Source: Planctomycetota bacterium
Lineage (GTDB): Bacteria > Planctomycetota > Phycisphaerae > UBA1845 > JANYLN01
DNA: 45,403 bases
Reading direction: 5' to 3'
NCBI GenBank assembly: GCA_025357795.1
Contig: JANYLN010000049.1
Span: 1 to 45,403 of the forward strand
Position 1 is the stretch's first letter. The number at the start of each line of letters is the position of its first letter. A program made the translations under genes and the position numbers. The notes beneath the pieces are model-generated. The model was not told the origin of the DNA. It did no database searches and saw only the letters and a list, made by a program, of their open reading frames with translations. Positions 1-37,443 of the stretch are shown here, piece after piece.

Positions 1-154
1 GGAACGGAACCCAGCATCGCGCGCCACACCCGCGCCGTGTCTTTGTGGCCGTTGTTGTTGTGGTCGTAGCCGTTGTCGTACCTTCTTGGCAACCGGACCA
101 CCCAGCGGCCGTCAAGTGGCGCCGGAAGTGGCGCTTTCGCCTCCGGCATCTGCA

Positions 155-249
155 CCCCGCCCAGCTCGCCCATCCAGCCCAGCTTCACGCCGCGCTCGCC
201 TGGCCCAGACCTGTTTGGTGGCGCCGTTGGTGGCAGACCCGCCGGCTCC
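155..249 (-). repeat. Dispersed ~95-nt intergenic repeat, copy A
   Basis: Reverse complement (ggagccggcgggtctgccaccaacggcgccaccaaacaggtctgggcca...gcgtgaagctgggctggatg...) matches 17196-17290; first 49 nt identical, about 6 mismatches in 95 by hand alignment. Confidence 0.93.
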
Positions 250-389
250 AGTTTCCCTTGCGGTGGCTCCCCGTTTCACCCGATCCCCAGCGACCCCAAA
301 CCCGCATCCGCTTGCCCCCCGGCGCAACACTCAGCACACCCCTCGTCATAGATAAGGGATGGCCGCTATCCAATAACAGTTAAGTGTAG

Positions 390-1034
390 TTATCCCAGTA
401 CCTTGGCTCGGACGTAGTCGATCACCTCGGTGCAAGCGCGATTCGCCTCGGTCTGCTGGTGGGCAACCTCTTCGCGGATGCGGACTTGCTCCCCGGCCGC
501 CAGGTCCGGCGAGCTGAGGTTGGCGTAGACGGTCCACGCAGCTGCCTCAGCCGCCGCAAGGGTCATGTGCGCGGCCCCCGCCAGGTCCGTCCACAGGTAC
601 CGGCTGGACAGTGGGGCCAACGCAGCCATATCCCGCAGACACGCGGCGCACGTCGCCAGGATCTGGCTCGGAATCGCCAGCGCAGCCGTCAGGGCCAACA
701 CCTTCTGCTCCGCCGAGGCAGGGTCGTTCGCTTCGAGACGGGAGGCCTTCCGCCAAAGATCGTAAGCTGCGATGTCTTCAGCAATTAGCCCCGCCAGCAA
801 CTTCGCCCCACGCTCCAGCCGGCTCATCGCATGCACGATCGGCTCCGACCCGCTCCCTTGCTTTTGGGCTCGCTTCAGAGCGAAGGTGGCGACCATATGC
901 CCAAGGTTCACACCGATCGAGCCGGTCAACGCCGCCGCGCTGCCGCCCCCCGGCATGGACGAGTTGCTCCCCAGGTCAGCCAGGAACTGCTGCATCGGTA
1001 ACGAGAGGTAGTCCTTCTCCGTTGCATCGCTCAT
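390..1034 (-). CDS. Formiminotransferase-cyclodeaminase (FTCD_C / cyclodeaminase domain) family protein
   Basis: ORF 390..1100; start refined to MSDATEKDYLSLPMQQFLADLGSNSSMPGGGSAAALTGSIGVNLGHMVATF, typical of FTCD C-terminal cyclodeaminase domain proteins. Confidence 0.85.
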   Translation of the reverse strand: MSDATEKDYLSLPMQQFLADLGSNSSMPGGGSAAALTGSIGVNLGHMVATFALKRAQKQGSGSEPIVHAMSRLERGAKLLAGLIAEDIAAYDLWRKASRLEANDPASAEQKVLALTAALAIPSQILATCAACLRDMAALAPLSSRYLWTDLAGAAHMTLAAAEAAAWTVYANLSSPDLAAGEQVRIREEVAHQQTEANRACTEVIDYVRAKVLG

Positions 1035-1103
1035 GTGTGGGTTCCGTTGTCTAAAAAAGTGTAAGGACCGGCCGGGCCACGATTTACCGCGCCTGGCCAA
1101 ATT

Positions 1104-3950
1104 CTATCGCCCAGCGCCCGGCGTTGCCTCCCTGGCCGGCTGGGTTTGCGCAGGTTGCGTCTGGGCGGATTCGATAACTGCCGTGTAGCCCTTGACTTGC
1201 ACCGCCTTGGGGTCGGGGGTGATCACGACGATCACCGGATTGGCCAGGAATTTCCGCCCGACTCGCTGCACGTCATCCATCTGGATCGACTCCATGACCT
1301 CGGGCAACTTATCGGAGAAGGCATATCCCAATCCATAAAGCTCGTCCAGAGCAGCCATTGCCGCTCGCTCGCTGTTGGTCTGCCGATCCAGGAGCTGGGT
1401 CGTCAGGATGACCCCCTTGGCCCGCTCAAGTTCCTCCGGGTCGAACTTGCCTTCCTGGGCCTTGGTCATCAGGTCCAGCACGATCGAGATCACCTTGCTC
1501 ACCTGCTCGGGCTGTGTGCCGGCGTAAACCGGGAAGAAGCCACCAGTTAGGCCCGTCCAGTTGATGCCGTGGACCTCGTAGACATACTTGCTCGTGCCCC
1601 CACGAAGCGCTTCGTGCAGCCAACCCGACGGCATCTGGTAGCCCGAGACGATAGTGTCGAGCGTGGTCATCGCCCAGCGGTCTTTCACTTCCGCGTAACC
1701 TACGGACGGGTAAGCAATTGCCACGCCGGCGACCTGGCGGTCCGGGGACTTGGCCTTGATGAACAGCTTGTCAGGATTGGCGTTGCCGGCGACGGAAAGC
1801 CCTGCATCCAGTCCCCCCGGACGACCCGGAACGAGTCGGCCAAAGAGCTGACGCACCTCTTTTTCGACCGCGGCATCATCAATATCGCCGAAAATCGCGA
1901 GGATCGACCCCGCCCCGGTCACGCTGCGAGCGTGCCACTGGCGAAGATCGTCCGAGGTAAGTCTGGTGACAGAGCTGATCTGGCCTATCGGGTCCATCGA
2001 GTAAGGGTGCTGGCCAAAGTACTTACGGCGGACGTACTGGAGCAGCTCGCTCCGCCAATTCTCATCCATTGCACGGATCTGGTCCAGGATGGGCTGGCGG
2101 ACCTCCTCAACGGCCTCAGGTTTCAAGGCCGGATCGAGCACGACCTCAGCGAAGACGGGCAGGGCATCAGCGAGGTTCTCAGAGAGGACTTCAGCCTTAT
2201 AGAAAAAGGTATTGGAGCCCGCCCCGGTCTCGACAGCCGCCCCGATCGAATCGAAGAAGTCCGCGATCTGCTCGCCCGTGCGGGTCTTGGTGCCGCGGAG
2301 GCTCGCCTCGGCCATAAGGTTAGTGATGCCATTGTTTTGCGGCGTTTCGGCGAGCACCCCGCCCAAGGCGTAGAACTGGATCGAAACGGTGGGCGTGGCC
2401 GGATTCTTCTGCAGCAGAACGCGCAGACCGTTGTCGAGTTTTATCATCCGAATCTCACCAGGCTGGCCGAGCGCCTTGGCGGCGGTGGCTTGTTCCCACT
2501 GGGTGAGGTCGGCTTGGCGGGGAGCGACCAGGACGCTGACGAGGTTATCGGACCGCAGGTACTTGTGGGCAACTCGCTGGATATCTTCGGCCGAGACCTT
2601 CTGGATCTGTTCGACGTAGCTGGCGGAGAAATGCGGGTCGCCTGTGGACATCAAATCGGTCGCGAGCATCGCACCAAGGGTATCGACCTTTTGGAGGCTC
2701 TGGACGTACTCGGCGACCTTCTGGCGCTTCGCCTTGGCGAGTTCCTCCTTGCTGGCCGGCTCGTTGGCGAGTTTGGCGACGGCCTCGATCACGGCCTGGC
2801 GGACTTTCAGCAGGTTTGCAGGCAGGCAGCGGACCTGGACCTCAAAAACGCCGCGGGACCACTCGGGGGTCCAGCTGGCACCGCCCAGGGACAGGGCCAG
2901 GCGCTGGCGGTAGACCAGGTCACTGGTCAGCCGGGCGCTCGGGCCGGTCGTGAGGATGAAACTGGCCAGGTCGAGGGCGTAGAGGTCCGGGTCGGTCAGC
3001 CGAATCGAGGGCCAGCCCATAGTAAGGATGGCGGCGTTGAGTTCCATCTGTTTGGTCGCGCTGCGAGGCGAGACGATCTGCGGGGCCTCGGGCAGGGTCA
3101 CCAGGTTGAGGGGCCTGCGGGCGAAATCGCTGAAGTACTTGATAACACTGGTCATAGCCTGGTCCAGGTCGATGTCGCCGCAGATGCTGACGATGACGTT
3201 GTCGGGAATGTAACGGCTGCGCCAGTAGTTAACCACGTCCTGCTTGGTCAGGGCCTGGATGTTCTGCTTGTAGCCAATGACGGGGAACTGGGCGGGGTGT
3301 CCGGCGAATAGGATCTTCATTGTCAGCTGGTGGAGCTGGGTTTCGGGGTCGTCGAGGGAGCGTTCCAGTTCGCGCTGGACAACGCCCAGTTCACGCTGGA
3401 ACTCGCTGTCGGGGAAACTCGCCCGGGTGATCCAGTCGGAGAGCAGGTCGACGGCGGTATCGAGGTACTTGCCTGCGGTGTTGATGTAATAGCAGGTGTG
3501 GTCGTAGGTTGTGTATGCGTTACTGTCCCCGCCGATCTTGAGCAACAGTTCGCGGCTTTTCTCCTCGGAGCGGGTGGTGGTGCTGCCCCCCGCAAGCAGG
3601 TGCTCGAAGAGGTGGCTCAGGCCCGTGCCCAGGTAGGGGTCTTCGTAGATACTGCCGGTCCGCACGTACATACGGACGGAAACGATGGGGGCGACCTTAT
3701 ATTGCTTGAGAATCACGCGCATGCCGTTGGAGAGGACGGCGACCCGTTCGTCGGGGCGGTCGACCAGCAGGGCGTTCACGAGCAGCGCCTCGCTGGGCTG
3801 GCTGCTCGGGGGCATGAACTTCTGCAGGGAGACGGTGCCCTGCGGCTGGGAGGCGGGGGCGGCCGGCTGGGCAAACGAAGTCGCGACAACGAGCGATGAC
3901 AGAAGAGCACAGCAGACGACGACGGCAACGACGTTTTGTCTTGGCATCAC
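1104..3950 (-). CDS. M16 family (insulinase/pitrilysin-like) zinc peptidase, two tandem M16 halves, signal peptide
   Basis: 948 aa; inverted zinc motif HLFEH in GTGLSHLFEHLLAGGS; second half lacks the motif (GGVLAETPQNNGITNLMAEA); N-terminal hydrophobic signal. Confidence 0.93.
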   Translation of the reverse strand: MMPRQNVVAVVVCCALLSSLVVATSFAQPAAPASQPQGTVSLQKFMPPSSQPSEALLVNALLVDRPDERVAVLSNGMRVILKQYKVAPIVSVRMYVRTGSIYEDPYLGTGLSHLFEHLLAGGSTTTRSEEKSRELLLKIGGDSNAYTTYDHTCYYINTAGKYLDTAVDLLSDWITRASFPDSEFQRELGVVQRELERSLDDPETQLHQLTMKILFAGHPAQFPVIGYKQNIQALTKQDVVNYWRSRYIPDNVIVSICGDIDLDQAMTSVIKYFSDFARRPLNLVTLPEAPQIVSPRSATKQMELNAAILTMGWPSIRLTDPDLYALDLASFILTTGPSARLTSDLVYRQRLALSLGGASWTPEWSRGVFEVQVRCLPANLLKVRQAVIEAVAKLANEPASKEELAKAKRQKVAEYVQSLQKVDTLGAMLATDLMSTGDPHFSASYVEQIQKVSAEDIQRVAHKYLRSDNLVSVLVAPRQADLTQWEQATAAKALGQPGEIRMIKLDNGLRVLLQKNPATPTVSIQFYALGGVLAETPQNNGITNLMAEASLRGTKTRTGEQIADFFDSIGAAVETGAGSNTFFYKAEVLSENLADALPVFAEVVLDPALKPEAVEEVRQPILDQIRAMDENWRSELLQYVRRKYFGQHPYSMDPIGQISSVTRLTSDDLRQWHARSVTGAGSILAIFGDIDDAAVEKEVRQLFGRLVPGRPGGLDAGLSVAGNANPDKLFIKAKSPDRQVAGVAIAYPSVGYAEVKDRWAMTTLDTIVSGYQMPSGWLHEALRGGTSKYVYEVHGINWTGLTGGFFPVYAGTQPEQVSKVISIVLDLMTKAQEGKFDPEELERAKGVILTTQLLDRQTNSERAAMAALDELYGLGYAFSDKLPEVMESIQMDDVQRVGRKFLANPVIVVITPDPKAVQVKGYTAVIESAQTQPAQTQPAREATPGAGR

Positions 3951-4081
3951 ATCCGCTCCGATTCATGGCTGAAAATTATGACAGTTTCATGCTTGTTCTA
4001 TTGTAGGGCAGCCGACGACGGCCAAGGTCCGTATAAAAACACCGGCCATGGCATGTGGACGAGGCTGGCAGGGGCGTCGGG

Positions 4082-4555
4082 TTACTTGTTGGGTTGGCCG
4101 AGGGCGCGTTCGAGTTCCTCGAGGTAGGTCAGGGTTCGGTCGAGTTCGTTCTGCAGGTGACGCAGCCGCAGCAGCGTGCTGACCCGGCTGACCAGTTCGA
4201 CTCGCTTGATCGGCTTGACCAGGTAGTCATCCGAGCCGACCTCGACGCCGCGCTCGATGTCAGCCAGTTCGTCCAGGGCGGTGACCATGATGACCGGGAT
4301 CAGCTTGGTGGCTGGGTCGGCCTTGAGTTTCCGACAGACTTCGTAGCCGCTCATCCGGGGCATCATGATGTCCAGCAGGACCAGGTCGGGCCGATCGGCG
4401 GCAACCTTCTTGAGGGCCTCCTCGCCATCGCCGGCGGTCATGATGGTCACCTGTGGCAGGTCCTCCAGGTAGGCGTGCAGTAGCTCGACCATCTGGGGGT
4501 TGTCATCGACGATGAGCACCTTGCTGGACGGAATCGGCTTTTCCTGTTCCGACAT
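4082..4555 (-). CDS. Response regulator (single REC domain)
   Basis: VLIVDDNPQMVELL, DLVLLDIMMPRMSGYEVCRKLK, PVIMVTA, DDYLVKPIKRVEL: canonical CheY-like motifs. Confidence 0.93.
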   Translation of the reverse strand: MSEQEKPIPSSKVLIVDDNPQMVELLHAYLEDLPQVTIMTAGDGEEALKKVAADRPDLVLLDIMMPRMSGYEVCRKLKADPATKLIPVIMVTALDELADIERGVEVGSDDYLVKPIKRVELVSRVSTLLRLRHLQNELDRTLTYLEELERALGQPNK

Positions 4556-5337
4556 ATCGGGATCCTCTCGAAGGCGCAGCTGCCATCTCTCTCTATAACA
4601 GACTATGGTCGGAGCATTATAGCGATCTTCGAGGGTACGTCAGGTGGTTCAGGCAAAGAGTACACCGCCTTCCAGAACAGACCAAGGCTAGGATCAGCCT
4701 CATCAACCGGAAGCAGAGCGCGGGACTGAGCGTTGAAGAATGAGGAACGACAACCGCAGAAGGGACCGACCGCGGGATTTTTCGCTACCACATAGTGTAC
4801 CGATTTCGGGATATTAATAGGGAGATCCTGAGGCAGAAACCCCTATTTCGATCGGCGGGGCCAGATCCGGGGCGGCGTATGGTTAGGCGATGCCGCGGGA
4901 AAGGTGATCGAGGTGAGCCAAACGGGGGAGTTATAGGACGAGCGGACTAGGAGGTACCTGCGTGGTGAGGTTGTGGCCGAACGTAGGTCCGGCAAACAGC
5001 GAGGGCGTGGCAGTTGGCGGAAAAGGTTTTCCCGGCCGCTTTTTCAGGATCCCCGGCGTAGCAGTGTCGTACGGAAGCAGGAAAGGTGCGCAGTGCACGT
5101 CGCACACTTCTAACATGCCATTCATGCCATACATGAAGCACTGCTGATCCCTCAGGCCTGACTGTCAGCAACTCCAGAAGCGGTGCGGTGGGGGCGAAAT
5201 TCTTATGTGCCGAGCGAGTCAAGGGGGCTTGCGCCTCTGGCGTTCCGCTGAAGGGACATATATACTTTTCGTCTTAGCTCTGGCTGTATGTTGCCAATGT
5301 CACTACCAAAGGTTCCTTTGCGAGGGAAGTAGATCCT

Positions 5338-7956
5338 ATGAAGCGAGTACCGACGTGGATGTTCGCACTGATGGTCGTCGGCGTGCTGGGGGCCGCGACC
5401 TGTATGGCGCAGGTTCCAACCCCGGATTCCGCCTCCATCAGCGCAACGACAGGTGTAGCGGTGGCTAATGGCGGCCACAGGACGATCGAGTTGTGGCAGC
5501 CGTTGATCGGCGAGAAGTTCAACATTGGCGAGAAGATCGCCTTGTGTGTGAACGTGCTGATCGCCATCGCGGGCCTGATCTATGCCTTGATGCTGGTCGG
5601 GCAGATCAAGGGCGCGGATCAGGGCACAAAGAAGATGCAGGAGATTGCCCAGGCGGTCCGGGAAGGGGCGAATGCCTACCTCGGCCGGCAGTTCCGGGTG
5701 GTCGGTGTGCTGATCGTGATCGTCACGATCGCCCTGTACTATGCCGCGAAGGCCTCGGGCGCGGAATCGGTGATTTCGTACGGCCGCGCGGTTGCGTTCC
5801 TGGCTGGCTCGATTTTCTCGGCGACGGTGGGCTTTGTGGGCATGCGGCTGGCGACCACCGGCAACCTCCGCGTGGCGGCTGCGGCCCGCACGAGCTTCGG
5901 CAACGCCCTGCAGCTGGGCTATCGCACCGGCACGATCACGGGCATGTTGACGGATGGCTTGGGCCTGCTGGGCGGTTCGATCATCTTCCTGATTTACGGC
6001 GAGCACGCGTACGAGGCCCTGCTGGGCTTTGGCTTCGGCGGCACGTTGCTGGCGCTGTTCATGCGAGTCGGCGGCGGCATTTACACCAAGGCCGCGGACG
6101 TTGGCGCGGACTTGGTCGGCAAGGTTGAGGCCGGCATTCCTGAGGACGATCCTCGCAATGCCGCGACGATCGCCGACAACGTCGGTGACAACGTCGGCGA
6201 CTGCGCCGGTATGGCCGCTGACATTTTCGAGTCGTACGAAGTGACGATGGTGGCGGCGATGATTCTAGGTATCGCCTCGTTCGGTCACAAGGGCGTGATC
6301 TTCCCGCTGCTGGTCCGTGCGATCGGTGTGATTGCCTCGATCATCAGTACGTACAGCGTCCGCGCGGGCGACAAGGGCTCGGTTTCCGAGGCTATGAAGA
6401 GCGTCAACAGGGGCTTCGTGATCGGTTCGGCCCTGAGCATCCTGGGCTTCCTGGCCCTGGGCGTGGTGTACCTGCACTTCTCGCCGGCATATCTGCTGGC
6501 CTACCCGCAGGCAGCGGCGGGCTTCCCGGGGCATGACCCGGCCAATCTGCCGGCCTGGCAGAACCTGGGCGGCATGTTCGGAGCGGGGCTGGACATGCGG
6601 CCGGCCTGGACGTGCCTGATCGGTATCTTGCTGGCGGTTTGCCTGAACAAGGTGACCGAGTACTTCACGGGCACCGAGTACAGCCCGGTCAAGAGCTTGG
6701 CGAAGAGCTGCCAGACGGGCCATGCAACCAACATCATCCAGGGCTTCGCGGTCGGCTATGAGTCCACCGTGGCGGCCGTGCTGGTGATTGCTGCGGCGAT
6801 CCTGGCGTCGGTGGTGATCTACGCCGGCACGAACGCGACGTTCGTGGCCTTTGGCGTGGCGATGTGCGGCATCGGCATGCTGACGCTGACGGGCAACACC
6901 ATTTCGATGGACGTGTTCGGCCCGGTGGCGGACAACGCCAATGGCATCGGCGAGATGGGCTACGACAGGGCGGAGATGGGCGAGGTGCAGTACAAGAATG
7001 CTCGCCAGATCCTGTCTGACCTGGATGCGGTGGGCAACACCACCAAGGCCATCACCAAGGGTATCGCTATCGGCTCGGCGGTCATTGCGGCTGTCTCGCT
7101 GTTCAACTCATTCATTGTGTCGGTCGGCTCGGGCGGCCAGGGCGAAAGCGCCCTGATCGCTGAGGAAACGTACAGCAAGGTGGCGTCGATGCTGACGATC
7201 AGCGATCCGCGGCTGTTCATCGGTATGCTGATCGGCGGCGCGGTGCCGTTCCTGTTCAGTTCGATGACGATTCGCGCGGTCGGTCGCGCGGCGTTCCTGA
7301 TCGTCAAGGAAGTTCGCATCCAGTTCCGTGACAAGGCGATCTGGGAAGGCACCAAGAAGCCCAACTATGGCCGCGTGGTGGACATCTGCACGGCGGCGGC
7401 CCAGAAGGAACTCATCGGGCCGGGACTGTTGGCCCTGCTGGCGCCGGTGCTGGTCGGCTTTACCCTGGGTGTGGTTCCGTTGGCCGGCTTCCTGGGCGGT
7501 ATGATCGTAACGGGCCAGTTGCTGGCGGTCTTCATGGCCAATGCCGGCGGCGCGTGGGACAACGCCAAGAAGATGATCGAAGACGAGCCGAAGGACATGG
7601 TTGCCAATACGGGCAAGGGCAGCGAGAAGCATAAGGCTGCCGTGACCGGCGATACGGTCGGCGATCCGCTGAAGGACACGGCCGGCCCGGCCATCAACCC
7701 GCTGATCAAGGTCATGAACATGGTCAGCTTGCTGATCGTTGCTCTGATCCTGCCGTACGACAAGGTCATGGTCGAGGCCCTGCAGAAGCTGGGCGTGAAC
7801 GTGACGTTCAAGCCGATGGACAAGATGTTCTGGATCATCGTCACGGTTTGCGTGGTGGGCCTGGTGTGGGCTCAGTGGCAGTCCAAGCGTGAGAGCAAAG
7901 AGCTGATGGAGATAGAACAGGAAGTCGCCAAGGCCGAGACCGTCGGCGCCAAGTAG
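5338..7956 (+). CDS. hppA: Membrane-bound proton-translocating pyrophosphatase (H+-PPase)
   Basis: DNVGDNVGDCAGMAADIFESYEVT, GNTTKAITKGIAIGSA, GGAWDNAKKMIE, GDTVGDPLKDTAGPAINPLIKVMN motifs; many TM segments. Confidence 0.97.
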   Translation: MKRVPTWMFALMVVGVLGAATCMAQVPTPDSASISATTGVAVANGGHRTIELWQPLIGEKFNIGEKIALCVNVLIAIAGLIYALMLVGQIKGADQGTKKMQEIAQAVREGANAYLGRQFRVVGVLIVIVTIALYYAAKASGAESVISYGRAVAFLAGSIFSATVGFVGMRLATTGNLRVAAAARTSFGNALQLGYRTGTITGMLTDGLGLLGGSIIFLIYGEHAYEALLGFGFGGTLLALFMRVGGGIYTKAADVGADLVGKVEAGIPEDDPRNAATIADNVGDNVGDCAGMAADIFESYEVTMVAAMILGIASFGHKGVIFPLLVRAIGVIASIISTYSVRAGDKGSVSEAMKSVNRGFVIGSALSILGFLALGVVYLHFSPAYLLAYPQAAAGFPGHDPANLPAWQNLGGMFGAGLDMRPAWTCLIGILLAVCLNKVTEYFTGTEYSPVKSLAKSCQTGHATNIIQGFAVGYESTVAAVLVIAAAILASVVIYAGTNATFVAFGVAMCGIGMLTLTGNTISMDVFGPVADNANGIGEMGYDRAEMGEVQYKNARQILSDLDAVGNTTKAITKGIAIGSAVIAAVSLFNSFIVSVGSGGQGESALIAEETYSKVASMLTISDPRLFIGMLIGGAVPFLFSSMTIRAVGRAAFLIVKEVRIQFRDKAIWEGTKKPNYGRVVDICTAAAQKELIGPGLLALLAPVLVGFTLGVVPLAGFLGGMIVTGQLLAVFMANAGGAWDNAKKMIEDEPKDMVANTGKGSEKHKAAVTGDTVGDPLKDTAGPAINPLIKVMNMVSLLIVALILPYDKVMVEALQKLGVNVTFKPMDKMFWIIVTVCVVGLVWAQWQSKRESKELMEIEQEVAKAETVGAK

Positions 7957-7993
7957 GAACGGCAAGAGATTGCCGGACTCACTGAAAAAGACC

Positions 7994-8030
7994 AAAGGGC
8001 TCGTCTGTCGAAAGGCAGACGAGCCCTTTT
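7994..8030 (+). terminator. Rho-independent terminator downstream of hppA
   Basis: 14-bp perfect stem AAAGGGCTCGTCTG / CAGACGAGCCCTTT followed by T-rich tract. Confidence 0.88.
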
Positions 8031-8439
8031 CCTTTGGGGCAGCGCTGGTCGTTGGTTGTTACGGACGCGGATGCACGCGGACAATAACCACCACGGCCAC
8101 AGCAGCAGAAAACACGGCGCCCTTGGATTGCGCTGGAGGACAAGCCGGTAAAGCCGGGACTCAGAACGCTGGCGCCGAGGGGGCAATCTTTCCGAGTGGG
8201 TGAAGGGCCTCACCTATGGTGTTTCCGGGAGCCTGGTTGGTTATCGGACGCCGGAGCGTTCGTGGGCTCAGCCGGCGGGAATCGGGCCGTCGCGGCCAAG
8301 TGTGGCGGGGCGGCAAGTGTTTGGGTTGCCGGCTTTGATTTACGGGCGGGTTTCGAGCATACTATAACGTCGGCTTGGTTCTGCGGTTGACGGTATCGCG
8401 GCAAGACGTGCTCGTCCTTCGATTCCGATGCCCGTGGGG

Positions 8440-8468
8440 TTGACTTGGCCGCTGGTGGCGGCTACCTT
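8440..8468 (+). promoter_or_regulatory. Putative sigma70-type promoter upstream of rpmF-plsX-fab cluster
   Basis: TTGACT - 17 nt - TACCTT. Confidence 0.4.
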
Positions 8469-8606
8469 CTTCGGCTTACACTGCGCGGTAGCTGTTGATA
8501 CAGTGTGCTTTCCGACACGTCGACGGCCTGGAAACCGAGGTTGTTTCCACCCGTGCTAAAGAATGGTGACTGTTAGGGTTACGTTTTTCTTCCATAGAGG
8601 TGATCG

Positions 8607-8789
8607 ATGTTACCGCAATTTAAGACCAGCCGGTCCCGCAAGCGTCTGCGTCGTTCGCACCACGCGCTGAAGCCGACGAATGTCGCGTTCTGCGCAAAGT
8701 GCAGCCAGCCGAAATTACCCCATGCCGCCTGTGACAACTGCGGCTACGTGAACGCCAAGGTGGCGATCCCGGTCAAGGAAGAGGAGTAG
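8607..8789 (+). CDS. rpmF: 50S ribosomal protein L32
   Basis: MLPQFKTSRSRKRLRRSHHALKP...CAKCSQPKLPHAACDNCGYVNAKV; upstream of plsX as in many bacteria. Confidence 0.94.
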   Translation: MLPQFKTSRSRKRLRRSHHALKPTNVAFCAKCSQPKLPHAACDNCGYVNAKVAIPVKEEE

Positions 8790-8796
8790 GACTCAC

Positions 8797-9810
8797 ATGC
8801 GCATCGCAGTGGATGCGATGGGCGGTGACCATGCGCCTCGCGAGATCGTTCGCGGCGCGGCCGAGGGGCTCTCATTCCTCGGTCCGCAGGACGAGCTGGT
8901 CCTGATCGGGGATGTCAAGGTTATCGAGGCCGAGTTGGCTGCGGTCAACGGTCACTCCAACCGGATCGTTATCGAGCCGGCGAGCCAGGTCATTGGCATG
9001 GACGAAGAGCCGGTCGAGGCCCTGCGCAAGAAGAGAGACAGCAGCATCGTCAAGATGGTCGCGCTGCATGCGGCCAGGAAGGTCGATGCGGTCATCAGCG
9101 CGGGCAACACGGGGGCATGCGCGGCGGCGGCGCAGCTGGGTCTGCGGACGATTCCCGGCGTGAGCCGGGCGGGCATCGCGATCGTGCTGCCGACGTTTGC
9201 GGGTGTGTCCGTGGTGTGCGACGTGGGTGCCAATGTTTCGCCCAAGCCCCATCACCTGTACCAGTACGCGCTGATGGGGTCGGTCTACGCCAAGGCGGTC
9301 CTGGGGCTGGATCCCAAGGTGGGCCTTTTGAGCGTCGGCGAAGAGGACGAGAAGGGCAACACCCTGGTCCACAAGGCGCGAGAGCTGATCAAGGCGGATC
9401 CGTTCCTGCACTATGCCCGCAATGTCGAAGGACGCGACCTGATCTACGGCAACTGTGCCAACGTGGTCATCTGCGACGGCTTCGTGGGCAACGTGGCGTT
9501 GAAGATCATCGAAGGCCTGGTCGAAGGGATCATCGCCAACGTCAGCAAGTCGGTGGCCGGGGCGGTGCCCGAGGTGGCCGAGAAGATCAATGCCGCCCTC
9601 AAGAGCGTCTTCAGCAAGCTGGACTACAGCGAGTATGGCGGCGCACCGCTGCTGGGGGTCGATGGGGTGATGATGATCTGCCACGGCCGCAGCGATCATC
9701 GCGCAATTGCCAACGCCGTGCGATCGGCCGGGGAGTTCGTCAAGGCGGGCGTGAACAAGGTCATTGCAGGCCACTTGGCCAAAGGGGTTGGCGTTGTTGG
9801 ACAAGATTGA
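8797..9810 (+). CDS. plsX: Phosphate acyltransferase PlsX
   Basis: MRIAVDAMGGDHAPREIVRGA; ISAGNTGACAAAAQLGLRTIPGVSRAGI; NVVICDGFVGNVALKIIEG. Confidence 0.96.
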   Translation: MRIAVDAMGGDHAPREIVRGAAEGLSFLGPQDELVLIGDVKVIEAELAAVNGHSNRIVIEPASQVIGMDEEPVEALRKKRDSSIVKMVALHAARKVDAVISAGNTGACAAAAQLGLRTIPGVSRAGIAIVLPTFAGVSVVCDVGANVSPKPHHLYQYALMGSVYAKAVLGLDPKVGLLSVGEEDEKGNTLVHKARELIKADPFLHYARNVEGRDLIYGNCANVVICDGFVGNVALKIIEGLVEGIIANVSKSVAGAVPEVAEKINAALKSVFSKLDYSEYGGAPLLGVDGVMMICHGRSDHRAIANAVRSAGEFVKAGVNKVIAGHLAKGVGVVGQD

Positions 9811-10798
9811 GCGCCTGCCCGTGAGACTGCTGGGCACCGGCCATGCAGTTCCCTCCCGGGTGATGACCAATAACGATTTTGCGAAGTATCTGGATACGTC
9901 GGACGATTGGATCGTTGAGCGGACGGGGATCCGGGAGCGACGCATCGCCACGGATGGCGAGACGACGGCGCCGCTGGCGACGTCGGCCGGCCGGGCCGCT
10001 CTGGTCGAGGCCGGCATCGATCCCAAAGAGGTGGACTTGGTCATCTGCGGCACGGTCACGCCGGAGGTTCCGTTTCCGGCGACCGCGTGCTTCGTGCATC
10101 GCGATCTGGGTTGTGTGAACGCGGCGGCATTCGATATTTCCGCGGCCTGCAGCGGGTTTCTCTACTCGCTGATCACGGGCTCGAAGTTCCTGCAGGGCGG
10201 GACCTGGAAGACGGCCCTGATCATCGGCGTGGACTGCATGAGCCGCGTCAGCGACTACCAGGATCGCGGCAGCTGCATTCTCTTCGGAGACGGCGCGGGG
10301 GCCGTGCTGATTCGGCGGGCGAGTCTCTCCGACGGCAAGGGCATCCTGCATCACCGAATGTACGCCGACGGCAAGGGTGTGGAGATGCTGTATGTGCCGG
10401 CCGGTGGCACGCGTCGGCCCGCCAACGAGCAGACGGTCGCGGCTCGTGAGCACTACCTGCGGATGAATGGGCGGGAGATCTACAAGTTCGCCGTCAGCCG
10501 GATGCAGGAGATCATCGAGCAGACGCTCTGCGAGGCGGGTGTGCGGCCCGAGCAGGTGGATATGGTCATTCCGCACCAGTCGAACCTGCGGATCATCGAG
10601 TCGGCCCGGCAGAGGATCGGGTGGCCGAAAGAGAAGATGCTGATCAACATCGAACGGTACGGCAACACCTCGGCGGGCTCGATCGGCATCGGGCTGGACG
10701 AGTGCCGCAAGGACGGCCGAGTGAAAGAGGGCAGCCTGATCCTGCTGGTGGCCTTTGGTGCGGGGCTCACCTGGGCGTCGGCCCTGTGGCAGCTGTAG
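9764..10798 (+). CDS. fabH: Beta-ketoacyl-ACP synthase III (start uncertain; could be an internal TTG/GTG near 9796-9820)
   Basis: LLGTGHAVPSRVMTNNDFAKYLDTSDDWIVERTGIRERRIA; DISAACSGFLYSL; GNTSAGSIGIGLDE. Confidence 0.95.
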   Translation: MQATWPKGLALLDKIERLPVRLLGTGHAVPSRVMTNNDFAKYLDTSDDWIVERTGIRERRIATDGETTAPLATSAGRAALVEAGIDPKEVDLVICGTVTPEVPFPATACFVHRDLGCVNAAAFDISAACSGFLYSLITGSKFLQGGTWKTALIIGVDCMSRVSDYQDRGSCILFGDGAGAVLIRRASLSDGKGILHHRMYADGKGVEMLYVPAGGTRRPANEQTVAAREHYLRMNGREIYKFAVSRMQEIIEQTLCEAGVRPEQVDMVIPHQSNLRIIESARQRIGWPKEKMLINIERYGNTSAGSIGIGLDECRKDGRVKEGSLILLVAFGAGLTWASALWQL

Positions 10799-10855
10799 AA
10801 GGCTGGATTCCTCGTTTTTTCTTATCGTGTTCGCGAACGGCAATGGTGAGTAGGC

Positions 10856-11782
10856 ATGGCCAAGACTGTGATCCTGTTTCCGGGGCAGGGAGCCCAAAGG
10901 GTCGGCATGATGGCCGACGTGGCGGCCGGGAGCCCCGCAGGCAAGGCGATCTTTGATACGGCGAACGCCGTTCTGGGCTTCGACCTGGCTTCGATCTGCT
11001 TTGGCGGCCCGGAGGAGAGGCTCAACGCGACGGACGTAGCGCAGCCGGCGCTGTTTGCGGCGAGCGTAGCGATGTGGAAGGCGCTGGAGGCGGCGGGCCT
11101 GACGGAGCAGTACAAGCCAGACGGTGCGGCGGGCCTGAGCCTGGGCGAGTATACGGCGCTGTGGCTGGCGGGGTGTTTTTCGTTCGAGGACGGCCTGCGG
11201 ATCGTGCGGGCCCGGGGCGAGCTGATGCAAGCGGCGGCCGTGGCATCGCCAAGCGGTATGGTCTCGATCATGGGCCTGGATGAGCCGGCTGTGGTCGAGT
11301 TGTGCGGTAAGGCGCGGCAGGGGGCTGAGGTGCTCTCGCCGGCGAACTTCAACTGCCCGGGGCAGATTGTGGTGTCGGGCAGCGCGGCGGCGTGCGAGCG
11401 GGTGGTTCCGCTGACGGAGGCGGCTGGGGGCAAGGCGATCCCGCTGAAGGTGGCGGGGGCGTTCCATAGCGAGCTGATGCGGCCTGCAGCGGAAAAACTT
11501 GCGGTCGTGCTGGCGGGGGTGAAGATACAGGCCCCGACGATGCCAGTGCTCAGTAATGTGACCGGCACGTATCATGAATGCAATCCGGAGCGGATCCGTC
11601 AGTTGCTCGTCGAGCAGGTGACGCAGTCGGTCCGCTGGGAGCAGGATATTCGGCAATTGCTGGCTGACAGATACGGGCGGTTTGTCGAGGTCGGCCCGGG
11701 CCGGGTGCTGACGGGGCTGCTGAGAAAGATCGAGCGCAAGGCCGAGGCGGTGAATATCAGCGATGCGGCAGCGCTGAAGTAG
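10856..11782 (+). CDS. fabD: Malonyl-CoA:ACP transacylase
   Basis: FPGQGAQRVGMMADV; AAGLSLGEYTALWLAG; VAGAFHSELMRPA. Confidence 0.95.
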   Translation: MAKTVILFPGQGAQRVGMMADVAAGSPAGKAIFDTANAVLGFDLASICFGGPEERLNATDVAQPALFAASVAMWKALEAAGLTEQYKPDGAAGLSLGEYTALWLAGCFSFEDGLRIVRARGELMQAAAVASPSGMVSIMGLDEPAVVELCGKARQGAEVLSPANFNCPGQIVVSGSAAACERVVPLTEAAGGKAIPLKVAGAFHSELMRPAAEKLAVVLAGVKIQAPTMPVLSNVTGTYHECNPERIRQLLVEQVTQSVRWEQDIRQLLADRYGRFVEVGPGRVLTGLLRKIERKAEAVNISDAAALK

Positions 11783-11807
11783 GACCGGTACTCAGGACTG
11801 AGAGCGG

Positions 11808-11847
11808 CAACAAAAGCAACACGCGGCCCCGCAAGCGGGTCGGCCAG
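11808..11847 (+). repeat. CAA-rich + GCAAGC hairpin module, copy in fabD-fabG spacer
   Basis: gcggcaacaaaagcaacacgcggccccgcaagcgggtcggcca; similar to 20389-20433 and 26436-26475. Confidence 0.75.
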
Positions 11848-11870
11848 CAGGCGTGGGCGTGGAGGATACG

Positions 11871-12620
11871 GTGAACGAACTAGCAGGCCAGGTGGCGGTG
11901 GTAACAGGCGGTTCGCAGGGCATTGGCAAGGCCATCTGCCTGATGCTGGCTCGGCAGGGGGCTACGGTGGTGGCGTGCGCCCGCAAGGTGGAGAAGCTGC
12001 AGGCCGTTGCCGAGGAAGCCGCCAAGCAGTGTCTGAGCGGCAAGGTTCAGCCGTACCCACTGGACGTGACGGATCGCGAAGCCATCGACAAGATGGTCGA
12101 GGACGTGATCGCCCAGCACAGCAAGATTGATGTGCTGGTCAACAATGCGGGGATCACGAAAGACGGTCTCATGCTGAACATGGAAGACGAGCAGTTCGAG
12201 GCGGTCCTGACGACCAACCTCCGCTCGGCCTTCTGGACGGTCCGGGCCGTAAGCAAGTACATGGTGCGGGCGCGGTTCGGGCGGATCATCAATATTTCGA
12301 GCGTCTCGGGCGTGATGGGCAACGCCGGTCAGAGCAATTACGCGGCATCCAAGGCGGGGCTGATCGGATTCACCAAGTCGGTCGCCAAGGAGCTTGCCAA
12401 GCGCAATATCACCTGTAACGCGATCGCTCCGGGGTTTGTCATGACGGAGATGACCGACGTACTGCCGGAGAAGGTGAAAGAGATCGTCAAGCCGCTGATT
12501 CCGATGAATCGCTTCGGCGAGCCGGACGACATTGCGTCGGCGGCGGCGTTTCTGGCCGGGTCGGGCGCCAAGTATATCACCGGGCAGGTGTTGGTGGTGG
12601 ACGGCGGGCTGTGTATGTGA
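11871..12620 (+). CDS. fabG: 3-oxoacyl-ACP reductase (GTG start preceded by GGAGG)
   Basis: [64 protein letters not shown]. Confidence 0.95.
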
Positions 12621-12664
12621 TGTAATGTCTTTCCGGGCAAGGCCCCGGGGTTGGTGGCCGCGTC

Positions 12665-12693
12665 TTGCAAGGGGCCCAGCCGGTAAGTATAGT
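12665..12693 (+). promoter_or_regulatory. Putative internal promoter for acpP
   Basis: TTGCAA - 17 nt - TATAGT, followed by an 8-bp hairpin TCGCGTCT/AGACGCGA at 12695-12715. Confidence 0.5.
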
Positions 12694-12777
12694 GTCGCGT
12701 CTATCGCAGACGCGATGGTTCGACTAGAGAGTTCTATCGCAAGGGCAACAATACTCATGAGTCAGGAGGATACCAAC

Positions 12778-13032
12778 GTGGCGTCCGAAAAGGAGGTCGA
12801 GGAAAAGGTCATTTCGATCGTCAGCGAGCAGCTCGGTGTGGACAAGGCTGAGATTTCCCGCGAAACCTCCTTCGTCAACGACCTGAACGCTGACAGCTTG
12901 GATACGGTCGAACTGATCATGGAACTCGAAGACGCGTTTGAGATGAGCATTCCCGACGAGGAGGCCGAGAAAATCCAGACGGTTGGACAGGCTGTCAATT
13001 ACATCGTCCAGCACCTGAACGCCAAGAAGTAG
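12778..13032 (+). CDS. acpP: Acyl carrier protein (GTG start after AGGAGGA)
   Basis: [45 protein letters not shown] with DSL phosphopantetheine site; the ORF track start at 12532 overlaps fabG out of frame and is too long. Confidence 0.95.
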
Positions 13033-13084
13033 TCGGCGGCGGGCACCGGATGAGGTTCGGCTCTAAAGTTTACAGGATTGTGGA

Positions 13085-14326
13085 ATGACCGGAAGACGTG
13101 TGGTCATAACCGGCCTGGGTGTGGTTACGCCCCTGGGCTGCGACGTCAAGATGTTCTGGCAGCGGCTGTTGAGCGGGTGCAGCGGCATTGGCCCGATCAC
13201 CAGCTTCGACGCCAGCAAGTTTGACGTGCGCTTCGGCGGCGAGTGCCGGGAGTTTGACCCGGAGCAGTACATCGATCGCAAGCAGGTCAAGCGGATCGAC
13301 CGCTTCGCCCAGTTCGCGATCGCCGGGGCGATCCAGGCGGCCAAGGACAGCGGCCTCGACTTTGCCAAGGAAGTGCCCGACCGCATGGGTGTGATCATCG
13401 GGTCGGGCATTGGTGGGCTGCGCGAACTGGAAGAGCAGCACAAGCGCATGCTGGAAAAGGGCCCGGACAAGATCAGTGCCTTTACCATTCCCAAGCTGAT
13501 GGTCAATGCGGCCAGCGGCAACGTCTCGATTCTGTTCGGGGCGCAGGGGCCGAGCACAGCGGTGGCGACGGCGTGTGCGTCGGCCGCTAATGCGATGGCA
13601 GATGCCTTCAAGGCCATCGCCCGTGACGAGGCGGACATCATGTTCACCGGCGGGACCGAGGCGGCTCTGACGGAGCTGGGCGTGGCGGCGTTTGCCGCCA
13701 TGAAAGCCCTGTCGGAGCGCAACGACGATCCGCAGCGGGCGAGCCGGCCGTTCGACAAAGACCGGGACGGATTCGTCATGGGCGAAGGCGCGGGTATCCT
13801 CATCCTCGAGGAACTCGAGCACGCAAAGGCCCGCGGCGCAAACATCTACGCCGAGTTGGTCGGCTATGGTGTCAGTTCGGATGCGTTCCATATCACGCAG
13901 CCCGAGACCGAGGGTACTGGCGGCGGCAAAGCGATGCGGATGGCGCTGGCCGATGCGGGCATGGGTCCGGACAACATCGACTACATCAACGCCCACGGCA
14001 CTAGCACGCCGCTGGGGGACATCGCCGAGACCAAGGCGGTCAAGGCGGTGTACGGTGCGGCGGCCCGGAAGGTCGCCATCAGCAGCACCAAGAGCTGCAT
14101 CGGCCATCTGCTGGGTGCAAGCGGGGGCGTGGAGATGATCGCGACGATTCTGGCCCTGCGGGACCAAGTTGCTCCGCCGACGATCAATCTGGACACGCCA
14201 GATCCAGAGTGCGACCTGGATTACGTGCCAAATCAGCCCCGGCCGATGAAGATCGAGGCGGCGATGAGCAACTCGTTCGGCTTCGGCGGGCACAACGCGT
14301 CGCTGATAGTCTGCAAGTACCGGTGA
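13085..14326 (+). CDS. fabF: Beta-ketoacyl-ACP synthase II
   Basis: RRVVITGLGVVTPLGCDV; GPSTAVATACASAANAM; NAHGTSTPLGD; KSCIGHLLGASGGVE; NSFGFGGHNASL. Confidence 0.96.
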   Translation: MTGRRVVITGLGVVTPLGCDVKMFWQRLLSGCSGIGPITSFDASKFDVRFGGECREFDPEQYIDRKQVKRIDRFAQFAIAGAIQAAKDSGLDFAKEVPDRMGVIIGSGIGGLRELEEQHKRMLEKGPDKISAFTIPKLMVNAASGNVSILFGAQGPSTAVATACASAANAMADAFKAIARDEADIMFTGGTEAALTELGVAAFAAMKALSERNDDPQRASRPFDKDRDGFVMGEGAGILILEELEHAKARGANIYAELVGYGVSSDAFHITQPETEGTGGGKAMRMALADAGMGPDNIDYINAHGTSTPLGDIAETKAVKAVYGAAARKVAISSTKSCIGHLLGASGGVEMIATILALRDQVAPPTINLDTPDPECDLDYVPNQPRPMKIEAAMSNSFGFGGHNASLIVCKYR

Positions 14327-14357
14327 ACCAAGTTCGTACAGATAACCGATAATAAGG

Positions 14358-14392
14358 AAGGGCTTGCCCCGGTGGGTAAGCCCTTTGTTTTA
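14358..14392 (+). terminator. Rho-independent terminator downstream of fabF
   Basis: AAGGGCTTgccc..gggtAAGCCCTT followed by TGTTTTAG. Confidence 0.8.
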
Positions 14393-14421
14393 GATTTACA
14401 ATATCGGATTATCTACCGCGT

Positions 14422-14895
14422 ATGGCTGGAACGCAAGCAGAGATCGATGCCCTGCTGGCTGAGGCGCAGACCCTGGCGGCGACGTCTGAGGCAGGCGGGG
14501 ATGCTGGGCCGACGAGCCCTGCCCTTGCAGCGGCGACAGTGGTTGCCGGGGCAGGAACCTTGGCGTCGGGCGGTGCTTCGTCCGGGGCGAGGTCGGCGCC
14601 GGGCGGGTGGAACCGGCCAGGCAACGAGCGGATGGGGCGGATTCTGCAGATCAAGGTTCCGCTGATGGTGGTGCTGGCGCAGCGGAAGATGCCGGTCCGC
14701 GAGATTCTGAGCATGTGCATCGGCTCGATCATCGAGTTCGACAAACCCTTCGACGAAGAACTGGAATTGCTGGTTAATAATCGTTCGATCGCGTTTGGCC
14801 ACGCGGTCAAGATCGGCGAAAACTTCGGTCTGCGGATCTCGCGGATCGGGGATGTTCGCGCGCGGATCGATGCCCTTCGGTCGGAAGTGGACTGA
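14422..14895 (+). CDS. fliN: FliN/SpoA-domain flagellar motor switch (or T3SS C-ring) protein
   Basis: RILQIKVPLMVVLAQRKMPVREILSMCIGSIIEFDKPFDEELELLVNNRSIAFGHAVKIGENFGLRISRIGDVRARI: SpoA/FliN C-terminal domain. Confidence 0.87.
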   Translation: MAGTQAEIDALLAEAQTLAATSEAGGDAGPTSPALAAATVVAGAGTLASGGASSGARSAPGGWNRPGNERMGRILQIKVPLMVVLAQRKMPVREILSMCIGSIIEFDKPFDEELELLVNNRSIAFGHAVKIGENFGLRISRIGDVRARIDALRSEVD

Positions 14896-15313
14896 CAGGG
14901 CTTGTCACCAGCGGCGAATGAGTGTCATTTTGTCTGCGACTCTGTCGGATTACCTCTTGCGTGCGCTTTATTGGCAACCGTTTGAGGCTTACCGAGTTAT
15001 GAGGCCGTGTCGGCGAGGGAATGGCGAGCGGGGCCAACTTGGATTGTCGCTCCATTTTTGTGTTGACTCGTCCGCCTGGAATGGTAATGTTGACATAGGA
15101 GCAGGGCGTAGTGCCGCGAAGATCCGGGCTGCTCGAAAAACCCCGGAATAGCCCTTAAAGCGAGCGCCCATGCGCGCGGTGTGCCGGTGCGTACGGCACC
15201 AAACAGCAATAGGGCAATAGCGGCAAGTCGCCCTGCTTCTCTTTTTTGTTTAACGACGTATGCTACGGAAACGACACGGGTTGCGTTTGCGTTGGCTGCG
15301 GTGATTCCTGACA

Positions 15314-15353
15314 TAAGACGACCCGCGACAGATGGCTGCCGCGGGTCGTCTTA
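15314..15353. terminator. Perfect 14-bp stem-loop between fliN and ilvC (probable bidirectional terminator)
   Basis: TAAGACGACCCGCG / CGCGGGTCGTCTTA. Confidence 0.6.
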
Positions 15354-15398
15354 TATCCAACTTAACGACTGCAGTATTCCAGAATCCGCCATGGTGTT

Positions 15399-16403
15399 CT
15401 AGAATTCCTTTGCGTTGATCCACTTCATCATCTTGCGCAAACGCCGGCCAACGACCTCGAGCGGGTGTGTTTTATCGGCCTGTTCCAGGGCGTTGAACAT
15501 CGGCTTGCCGACCTGGCACTCGAGGAGCCAATCGCGGGCGAACTGGCCGGTCTGAATTTCCTTGAGGATCTTGACCATTTCCTTGCGGGTCTCGTCGGTG
15601 ACGATCCGGGGGCCGCGGGTGAGGTCGCCGTACGTGGCGGTGTTGGAGACGCTGTAGCGCATGTAGCTGATGCCGCCCTGGTAGAACAGGTCGACGATGA
15701 GCTTCATCTCGTGCATGCACTCGAAGTAGGCCAACTCCTCGGGATAGCCGGCGTTTACGAGCGTTTCGAAGGCGGCCTTGATGAGGGCGGAGACGCCGCC
15801 GCAGAGGACGACCTGCTCGCCGAAGAGGTCGGTTTCGGTCTCGTCCTTGAAGGTGGTCTCGATGACGCCGGCGCGGGTGCCGCCGATACCGGTGGCCCAG
15901 GCGAGGGCGATCTGGCGGGCCTTACCGGTGGCGTCCTTGTGGATGGCGACGAGGTTGGGGACGCCGCCGCCGCGTTCGAACTCACTGCGGACGAGGTGAC
16001 CCGGACCTTTCGGAGCGATCAGGACGACATCGACGCCTTCGGGGGCGACGATCTGGCCGAAGTGGATGTTAAAGCCGTGCGTGAAACCCAAGGCTGCGCC
16101 GGGCTTTAGATTTGGAGCGATCTCGTTGCGGTAGATCGGTCCCTGCGTTTCGTCGGGCAGGGCGAGGATGACCAGGTCCGCGACTTTGACGGCCTCGGAG
16201 ATGGGCAGGGGGGCGAAGCCGTGCTGTTTGGCGAGGTCGTAGTTTTTGGAGCCCGGGCGCTGGCCTATGACGACCTTGAGGCCGCTGTCACGCATGTTGA
16301 GTGAGTGGGCGTGGCCCTGGCTGCCGTAGCCTAGTACGGCAACGGTTTTGCCCTTGAGGGGGTCGAGGGAGGCGTCTTTTTCGTAATAAATAGTTACCGG
16401 CAT
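15399..16403 (-). CDS. ilvC: Ketol-acid reductoisomerase (class I)
   Basis: [76 protein letters not shown]; start refined from 16757. Confidence 0.97.
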
Positions 16404-16621
16404 TGTGTTTGTCTCCAACAGTAAACTGCGTCGAGGTTTGAACCCTGGGCCGTCCAGTGGACGGCCGCACCAACCGCAACAAAGGCCGAGCCTTATGTGC
16501 GGCACACGCACCTGGCGCCAGGTTCTGCCTCTGCGGGTACGCACGGCATGGGGGCTGAGGGCGGGGTCGCCGCCGTCAGCGACTTGGCGTTGCAGGCATC
16601 CGTACATCTTTGAGGGAGACC

Positions 16622-16649
16622 AGTATAGTCGGCTTGGGTGCGGCCGCAA
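16622..16649 (-). promoter_or_regulatory. Putative promoter for ilvC
   Basis: minus strand TTGCGG - 16 nt - TATACT. Confidence 0.35.
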
Positions 16650-16788
16650 AGGCAATCGGTGCGGGAGGTTGCCGAGGCAAGCGGTGTGCGGCATGGACTT
16701 TGGCCGCCAGGGACCTAGGATCTGTGTTCGAGCTGGAGTGCGTCGGGTACCGGCCATAAAGATGTTGGGTCAAAGTGGTTGCCGGTTG

Positions 16789-16817
16789 TTGACCGTGATT
16801 GGCGCCGACAGTAGCAT
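16789..16817 (+). promoter_or_regulatory. Putative promoter of ATP synthase operon
   Basis: TTGACC - 17 nt - TAGCAT about 100 nt upstream of the first operon gene. Confidence 0.42.
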
Positions 16818-16920
16818 CGTGGTTTCTTTGCTGGTCGGGCAGCCGAGGCGTGGTGCCGCGACCCGCAGAGCGGAAATTCCCGTAAATGCTGGATCTGCCT
16901 GACGATGGAGCCCAAAATCA

Positions 16921-17178
16921 ATGTCTCCTTCGGAGCCGCCACGTGAGTCGCAGACGCCCTGGTCCCGGTATGCGGGGATGGGATTCGAGTTTGCCGCGGC
17001 TATTGGCGCGTTCATGCTGATGGGCTGGTGGGTCGATCGGCACTGGGGAATTGAAGGGCGCAAGGGACTGCTGATCGGGACGTTGATTGGTGTGATCGGT
17101 GGGACCTATAACTTCATCCGCGAGGCGGTTGGGGCGTTGCGGGAGAGTGAGCGGCAGGGAAGAAAGAAGCGGCCCTGA
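16921..17178 (+). CDS. AtpZ/AtpI-family small membrane protein (F0F1 ATPase-associated)
   Basis: WSRYAGMGFEFAAAIGAFMLMGWWVDRHWGIEGRKGLLIGTLIGVIGGTYNFIRE; two TM helices; first gene of atp operon. Confidence 0.85.
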   Translation: MSPSEPPRESQTPWSRYAGMGFEFAAAIGAFMLMGWWVDRHWGIEGRKGLLIGTLIGVIGGTYNFIREAVGALRESERQGRKKRP

Positions 17179-17195
17179 ACGGCAGACGGGATTCT

Positions 17196-17290
17196 GGAGC
17201 CGGCGGGTCTGCCACCAACGGCGCCACCAAACAGGTCTGGGCCACTCGAGCGCAGCGTGAAGCTGGGCTGGATGCGGGAGCTGGGCGGGA
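17196..17290 (+). repeat. Dispersed ~95-nt intergenic repeat, copy B
   Basis: near-identical to reverse complement of 155-249. Confidence 0.93.
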
Positions 17291-17317
17291 GCCGCGAGAG
17301 GGATTCGGACAGGGCGT

Positions 17318-17406
17318 GGGTGCCACCAACGGCGCCCGTGAAGAGGTCTGTGAAAAGTGAGCCCGGCGTGAAGCTGGGCGGGCTGGGCGAGCTGGGCTGG
17401 GTGCGG
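17318..17406 (+). repeat. Dispersed ~95-nt intergenic repeat, diverged copy C (tandem to B)
   Basis: gggtgccaccaacggcgcccgtgaagaggtctg...cccggcgtgaagctgggcgggctgggcgagctgggctgggtgcgg. Confidence 0.8.
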
Positions 17407-20340: not shown

Positions 20341-20353
20341 TCGGGAAAGATGG

Positions 20354-20384
20354 CATGGTCCTGCAACGGCGCGGGACCATGGCA
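20354..20384 (+). repeat. 31-nt hairpin repeat, copy 1 (catggtcctgcaacggcgcgggaccatggca)
   Basis: identical 31/31 to 26361-26391; internal 8-bp palindrome CATGGTCC/GGACCATG. Confidence 0.9.
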
Positions 20385-26288: not shown

Positions 26289-26360
26289 GTTATGCGCGGA
26301 CGGGGGCAGACCGGCCAGGGGGGCTAGAGTATTTCAGATTATCTCTAGCGGGAGCGACAG

Positions 26361-26391
26361 CATGGTCCTGCAACGGCGCGGGACCATGGCA
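26361..26391 (+). repeat. 31-nt hairpin repeat, copy 2
   Basis: catggtcctgcaacggcgcgggaccatggca, identical to 20354-20384. Confidence 0.9.
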
Positions 26392-26435
26392 TTGCGCTTC
26401 AGTCGTCCCTACGGGACAGTAGAGGCCAACGGCAT

Positions 26436-26475
26436 TGAGTAACGGCAAGAACGCGCGGCTGGCAAGCGAGCCGGC
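26436..26475 (+). repeat. GCAAGC hairpin module, copy downstream of atp operon
   Basis: gtaacggcaagaacgcgcggctggcaagcgagccggcta. Confidence 0.72.
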
Positions 26476-26526
26476 TAAATGGTCCGTCCCCCTTCCTTCC
26501 ATAGGTCTTCGAGGGCGGGGTTGGCT

Positions 26527-36959: not shown

Positions 36960-37267
36960 AGTTTTGATGGCGGGGCAGCCTACAAGGCGGTGGATCAACA
37001 CCTGCGGCGAAGGCTGCGTCAGTGGTTGTGCGCCAAGCATGCGGTACGCTGGCCGAGGACGAAGCGGTTCCGGGACGCGTACATCAACGAGGGGCTGGGG
37101 CTGGTGTGATTGCCCCGGCTGACGCGGACCTTCCCGTGGGCGAAAGCATGACTCTCCTGGACGAGAGTCGGATGCGGGAAATCCGCACGGCCGGTTCGAT
37201 GACCGGGCGATGGAAACGGAGTCATAGTGAGGACATTGAGGCGCCGGCAACCGAAAGGGCCGACTAA
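36960..37267 (+). mobile_element. 3' remnant of a group II intron: RT/maturase C-terminus with in-frame stop plus intron 3' sequence
   Basis: FDGGAAYKAVDQHLRRRLRQWLCAKHAVRWPRTKRFRDAYINEGLGLV*LPRLTRTFPWAKA* followed by gagtcggatgcgggaaatccgcacggccggttcgatgaccgg. Confidence 0.75.
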
Positions 37268-37443
37268 CACGCTACGCCTTGCCTTCGGCCACCGCGCCAC
37301 CGCTCGACTTTACCCTCTGGCCAGCCAGCCGGATGTGCGCTCGTGCCGCCTCGATATACACTCCCCAGGCAGGTCCGTAGAATAGGTACGCTGTCTGGGC
37401 GCCGACTCTGCATATTGTCAGCCGTTGCATCGGAGAGATCGCC

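Follow-up and report, generated by a model that had tools for sequence, protein, structure and literature searches.

The window, a stretch of 45,403 nucleotides from the draft genome of a planctomycete, contains three copies of a repeat of which the genome has about 110 or more. The repeat is probably a mobile DNA element, lineage-specific and non-autonomous, that resembles the Rickettsia palindromic elements (RPEs) in its behaviour without being palindromic. We infer its movement from the following features. With up to two mismatches, its 22-nt core has 112 matches in the genome versus none in a reversed control, and only three isolated, chance-like two-mismatch matches in 113 other genomes of the order. 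Copies form in-frame extra segments in conserved genes and arrays with steps of 111-112 nt, a 15-mer is letter-perfect in 78 of 79 copies while full copies (70 compared) average 82% pairwise identity, and chimaeras with a group II intron tail and with the R1 and R3 modules occur in many places.

Copies in the window and in the genome

Copies A, B and C were all recovered by sequence reading and by nhmmer profile search. The first-pass annotation had already listed the three copies, and its positions are 2-14 nt away from the profile coordinates. The features of the window are:

97..156, minus strand: R1 module on the right (3') side of copy A, ending in GGCGCCACTTGACGG, with an exact R1 motif match at 109-128
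157..251, minus strand: copy A, full length (nhmmer 251-157, 84.6 bits), 93% complementary to copy B
220-234, minus strand: 15-mer GCCACCAACGGCGCC of copy A
252..295, minus strand: U3 module on the left (5') side of copy A (module scan)
16933-17178, upstream of copy B: ATPase_gene1 (AtpZ), Pfam
17192..17288, plus strand: copy B, full length (nhmmer 88.0 bits)
17211..17225, plus strand: the same 15-mer in copy B
17304..17399, plus strand: copy C, diverged and in tandem with B (nhmmer 67.9 bits), 76% identity to B
17322-17336, plus strand: the same 15-mer in copy C
17897-18781, after the 151-aa ORF: ATP synthase subunit a, Pfam
36960..37313, plus strand: unfused group II intron tail, an unannotated remnant (end of the maturase frame, domain V and domain VI; GIIM 21.4 bits, Pfam cut-off 23)

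Copy A is located downstream of a formiminotransferase-cyclodeaminase-like gene (Pfam). It pairs with copy B as inverted arms (156-257 and 17188-17289), 93% complementary over 102 nt, in agreement with the opposite orientation first described for them, and the identical 49-nt core reported for both copies is present in the sequence. The U3 module of copy A is common to at least two other element copies, and a 321-nt match between window positions 183-502 and another stretch of the genome (L036) spans it. Copies B and C are in the atp operon, between atpZ and an ORF of 151 aa, which opens at GTG 17409 and shows no Pfam match. Copy C lies 111 nt downstream of B, with 76% identity over 88 nt; it is the diverged tandem copy of the first-pass annotation, but about 10 nt separate its end from the GTG at which it had been thought to finish. 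Other small repeats are found in the same region. The F3 repeat, a hairpin (CATGGTCCTGCAACGGCGCGGGACCATGGCA) with 29 motif matches in the 1.43 Mb of genome that was read, is located at 20342-20384 and 26349-26391, 6 kb apart in the region of the atp gene cluster. The segment 26349-26480 shows three small repeats in a row: F3, a relative of the repeat adjacent to a Y1 transposase gene (26401-26439), and F2 (CGGCTCGCAAGCGAGCCGGCTAAAT, 26456-26480).

The source genome is a draft of 3,535,969 bases in 338 contigs, 87.9% complete, and copy numbers at genome level come from whole-genome searches. Its two SBP_bac_10 matches, against none in 14 controls, are a hint, though no proof, of Planctomycetota. 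BLASTN of copy B gives at least 64 matches in its own genome, and a search with a 19-mer allowing up to three mismatches finds 128, versus 10 in a reversed control. Together with the 22-mer count, these figures rule out a local duplication and agree with the earlier description of a dispersed family, which has about 110 or more copies. Since several contigs end in element copies, the true number may be higher. The part of the genome that was read comprises 1.43 Mb in 121 stretches, where copy-bearing contigs were taken first and density figures are therefore biased; in it, 75 full and 38 core-only copies were accepted, 113 in all.

BLASTN of the whole copy B gives no matches in 60 other genomes of the order, and in the contigs of other species that show two exact 21-mer matches the remainder of the element is absent. 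Because the other genomes of the order contain no copies, the family appears to be lineage-specific at the order-level resolution of this comparison, whose relatives belong to the same order but to other families. The first-pass annotation had proposed that a local duplication would be recognised by the existence of only three copies and by none in relatives: the first does not hold (about 112 copies) and the second does in the genomes of the order, but absence from relatives makes the family lineage-specific, not unreal. No match to the element was found in phage, plasmid and viral collections, which, with a limited literature search, does not prove that it is undescribed.

Neighbouring clusters on one contig form 12 divergent, two codirectional and no convergent pairs, and the right ends of the element are nearer to contig ends than the left ends (29 versus 14 within 1.5 kb). 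The excess of divergent pairs is perhaps an effect of assembly breaks to the right of copies; several divergent pairs sit well inside long contigs. Divergent pairs were also considered as ends of composite transposons and rejected, as the called genes between them, compared by number, size and strand, differ from pair to pair. That the whole family is an assembly or binning artefact is very improbable: a draft of 338 contigs with several ending in copies, and breaks that could yield the divergent arrangement, would be compatible with it, but the copies vary in sequence, have many different surroundings and, within conserved genes, leave the frame open.

A nearly constant core in a variable element

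Full copies are about 97 nt long. The left end is fixed near TTCGGA, with a form of about WTTYnGGAnnCGG and two subfamilies, TTCGGATACGGGGTGGGT and TTCTGGAGCCGGCGGGTMT. The 15-mer GCCACCAACGGCGCC at the heart of the element and the letters that follow it constitute a 12-nt direct repeat (GCCACCAACGGC GCCACCAAACAG); ACYRAAC is directly to the right of the heart, and full copies continue for about 60 nt more. The right side is variable, and no sharp right end was found. Copies are single or in head-to-tail arrays of two to four units with a 112-nt period (22 of 30 array steps measure 111 or 112 nt). Most of them are intergenic, and their orientation shows no bias with respect to the flanking genes.

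The constancy of the 15-mer was rechecked with a profile of the right half only, which avoids the bias of searching with the 15-mer itself. This profile recovers 81 copies, two of them cut by contig ends, and it is in the other 79 that the 15-mer is letter-perfect in all except one, so its constancy is not a search artefact. For other 15-nt windows of the element, the number of copies that agree with the consensus ranges from 0 to 44 of 70. Intragenic copies lie in different frames and on both strands, and protein-level selection alone therefore cannot explain the constancy. Either movement requires the 15-mer, and the copies are young descendants of several source copies, or selection maintains it once a copy has inserted; the data do not separate these two. 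A dead element should decay evenly, which the 15-mer does not, and this counts against a mobile element unless the copies are young or the 15-mer is kept in some other way.

That the 15-bp heart is a selected functional DNA site, read by a host or element protein and carried throughout the genome, including housekeeping genes, by a mobile element without inverted ends, is conceivable, at roughly one chance in five. Slightly less credit is given to a host DNA-binding site in which the 15-mer would be recognised by a chromosome-organising, replication or recombination protein, and kept and spread by selection like Chi, KOPS or uptake sequences, the rest of the element being a carrier. Near-invariance at DNA level across copies of different age and context, and retention in intragenic copies of differing frame and of either strand, are what such a site predicts, but known sites of this type are short, and are not 97-nt units, 112-nt arrays or 37-residue insertions; the lack of orientation bias with respect to flanking genes also argues against it. 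The near-unchanged 15-mer offers a practical starting point in the search for the protein that reads it.

Insertions in conserved genes

Sixteen of the 113 copies lie inside genes, according to the approximate calls of a simple gene caller, and an ORF survey adds several more. The geranylgeranyl-PP synthase has 37 extra residues that are absent in all 13 aligned same-order homologues and also in solved structures, and MurF has about 22 extra residues, which none of its 13 same-order homologues shows. Extra residues split the alignment of two further enzymes with solved structures: prolyl-tRNA synthetase aligns as residues 12-320 and 403/410-644, and gamma-glutamyltranspeptidase as 20-105 and 175-585, versus structure residues 104 and 109. 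The ORF survey and Pfam place element copies in the tail of DnaK, an extension of ScpB, a linker of DnaX and a loop of ZnuA. SucA (around 12475 of stretch L073) contains a core copy and shows no net extra length versus two relatives, so that the copy replaced sequence or a deletion came afterwards; this counts against a mobile element.

Judging from their intact frames, the intragenic inserts are presumably translated; FGAGGYATNGATEEVVANR is an example of a peptide predicted from an element insert. The peptides that the element creates in the ORF track had been regarded as false in the first-pass annotation, which is right at some loci and not at several others, where copies are in frame in conserved genes. 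In the annotation of this organism, many spurious small ORFs and some odd protein linkers are explained by the element.

Element ends and candidate mobilising enzymes

No linked transposase or recombinase was found in this incomplete draft, in which part of the transposase families was searched, and no parent transposon is present among its five Y1 loci. By eye, core-only copies show no constant target duplication, the element ends being only approximately placed, and the compared genomes, all of other families, offer no empty site at DNA level. These results, together with the lack of a sharp right end, count against a mobile element. Comparison of the left end with the right side, by the profile of 38 core copies and by folding, gave no terminal inverted repeats. 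The consensus fold of 22 copies has 14 short pairs, one of them with a two-sided change and none joining the ends, and no conserved hairpin; single-sequence folds give z-scores of -1.3 to -1.9 on the plus strand and none on the other. A structured RNA was rejected, as Rfam gave nothing convincing for the atp locus and there is almost no covariation, and integron attC sites were rejected since no RYYYAAC / GTTRRRY pair was seen on reading by eye.

The first-pass annotation had suggested a link to a TnpA_REP/RAYT transposase. The five Y1 transposase loci (L178-L182), fetched as 2.6-3.4 kb segments, contain no element core, and the link found no support. Each of the five genes has its own adjacent small repeat: r178, r179, r180, r181 and the F2/F3/F5 group adjoin Y1 genes, L180 contains an inverted pair of GGTGTCAGGAAGAATT-type ends (r180) around 1074 and 1806, and L181 and L179 share GGGGTCAGAGCTT-type ends (r181, r179). 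The genome thus has Y1-associated repeats, among which the element does not visibly belong. Mobilisation of the element as a REP-type repeat by one of these Y1 (RAYT) enzymes is improbable: the enzymes exist, and nine of the 83 clusters have REP ends of two of them (r180 or r181/r179) no more than 450 nt away on their right, but the Y1 loci contain other repeat families and no element core, the consensus has no palindrome, and the REP ends are limited to a minority of chimaeric arrays.

Partner modules and group II intron tails

On their left, element copies adjoin the modules U1, U2 and U3. On their right, the module scan of the 1.43 Mb found as partners R1, with 24 motif matches, a group II intron tail, with 10, and R3, with four. 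The R1 module resembles, by reading, the right end of the element core itself, and contains CCGTCAAG in reverse.

About nine arrays are directly followed by the end of a group II intron, namely its final codons, its domain V and, in contigs that extend far enough, its domain VI; the fused tail is a true domain V-VI (RF00029). The element itself contains no group II intron domain V or VI, these being present only in the partner fused to the nine or so arrays, and Rfam finds no intron at the atp locus. RF00029 has 12 matches in the genome, four above the cut-off, and at least one of the weaker matches looked spurious on reading. The intron tail of the window has its domain V at about 37165-37197, carries no element and was aligned with nine fused tails; its Rfam score is below the threshold, whereas L082, L041 and L040 are above it. 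The fusion junction lies within GGGCTGG repeats common to the element and the intron tail, so the first fusion of array and intron probably arose through microhomology and would then have spread. The assembly shows no RVT_1 domain, and the intact intron is therefore gone or missing from the draft.

These arrays raise a further alternative, slightly less probable than the Y1 origin: a SINE-like retroelement derivative copied by the reverse transcriptase of a group II intron through the shared tail. It would account for arrays that run straight into the intron and for chimaeras in multiple copies, but most copies, core-only ones included, have no tail, the assembly lacks the RVT_1 domain, and a junction in GGGCTGG repeats of both partners is explicable by deletion.

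Proposed mechanism and relation to known repeat systems

As a mobile element, the repeat would be inserted by a trans-acting enzyme that recognises the 15-bp heart. Intragenic copies would persist where the frame is kept and the site is a loop, linker or tail, adding a short soluble peptide as RPEs do. Arrays may expand via unequal recombination or slippage, and some copies may have captured DNA of the right-hand neighbour, such as the group II intron tail or REP ends, after which the chimaeras would spread.

Bacterial MITEs (Correia, ERIC, RUP) are short, have high copy numbers and no transposase of their own, and some are fused in frame to ORFs (PMC2229807). The element shares these features, but MITEs have terminal inverted repeats, which it lacks, and usually target duplications, of which no constant one was seen by eye at its core-only copies. 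The REP/RAYT repeats of the GTAG and CGTC families are high-copy, some of them inside genes, and have been reported in Planctomycetes among others (PMC3733652). The element is likewise small, high-copy and partly intragenic, and other repeats of the genome adjoin Y1 genes. However, REPs are tagged palindromes of 20-40 bp, while the element is longer, non-palindromic and away from the five Y1 genes, with neither a GTAG nor a CGTC tag at its left end. Likeness to group II intron remnants is limited to the tail of about nine arrays, and the element itself mostly occurs without it.

The RPEs, of 105-146 bp, are found in intergenic regions and in frame inside genes, keep open reading frames and have an unknown mobiliser (PMC2229807, PMC10969869). 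The element, compared with them on features and behaviour, is similar in size and is also both intergenic and in frame, in the geranylgeranyl-PP synthase, MurF, prolyl-tRNA synthetase, gamma-glutamyltranspeptidase and other genes. RPEs are palindromic with inverted-repeat ends, whereas the element has no palindrome or inverted ends and is therefore not filed as an RPE; it also differs in its invariant 15-mer, its 112-nt tandem arrays, its intron-tail chimaeras and its unrelated lineage. Rickettsia offers the best-known example of a small element spreading in frame through many conserved genes. The same pattern with a non-palindromic element, and in an unrelated lineage, suggests a wider tolerance of such insertions by protein genes, and a wider reshaping by them, than thought.
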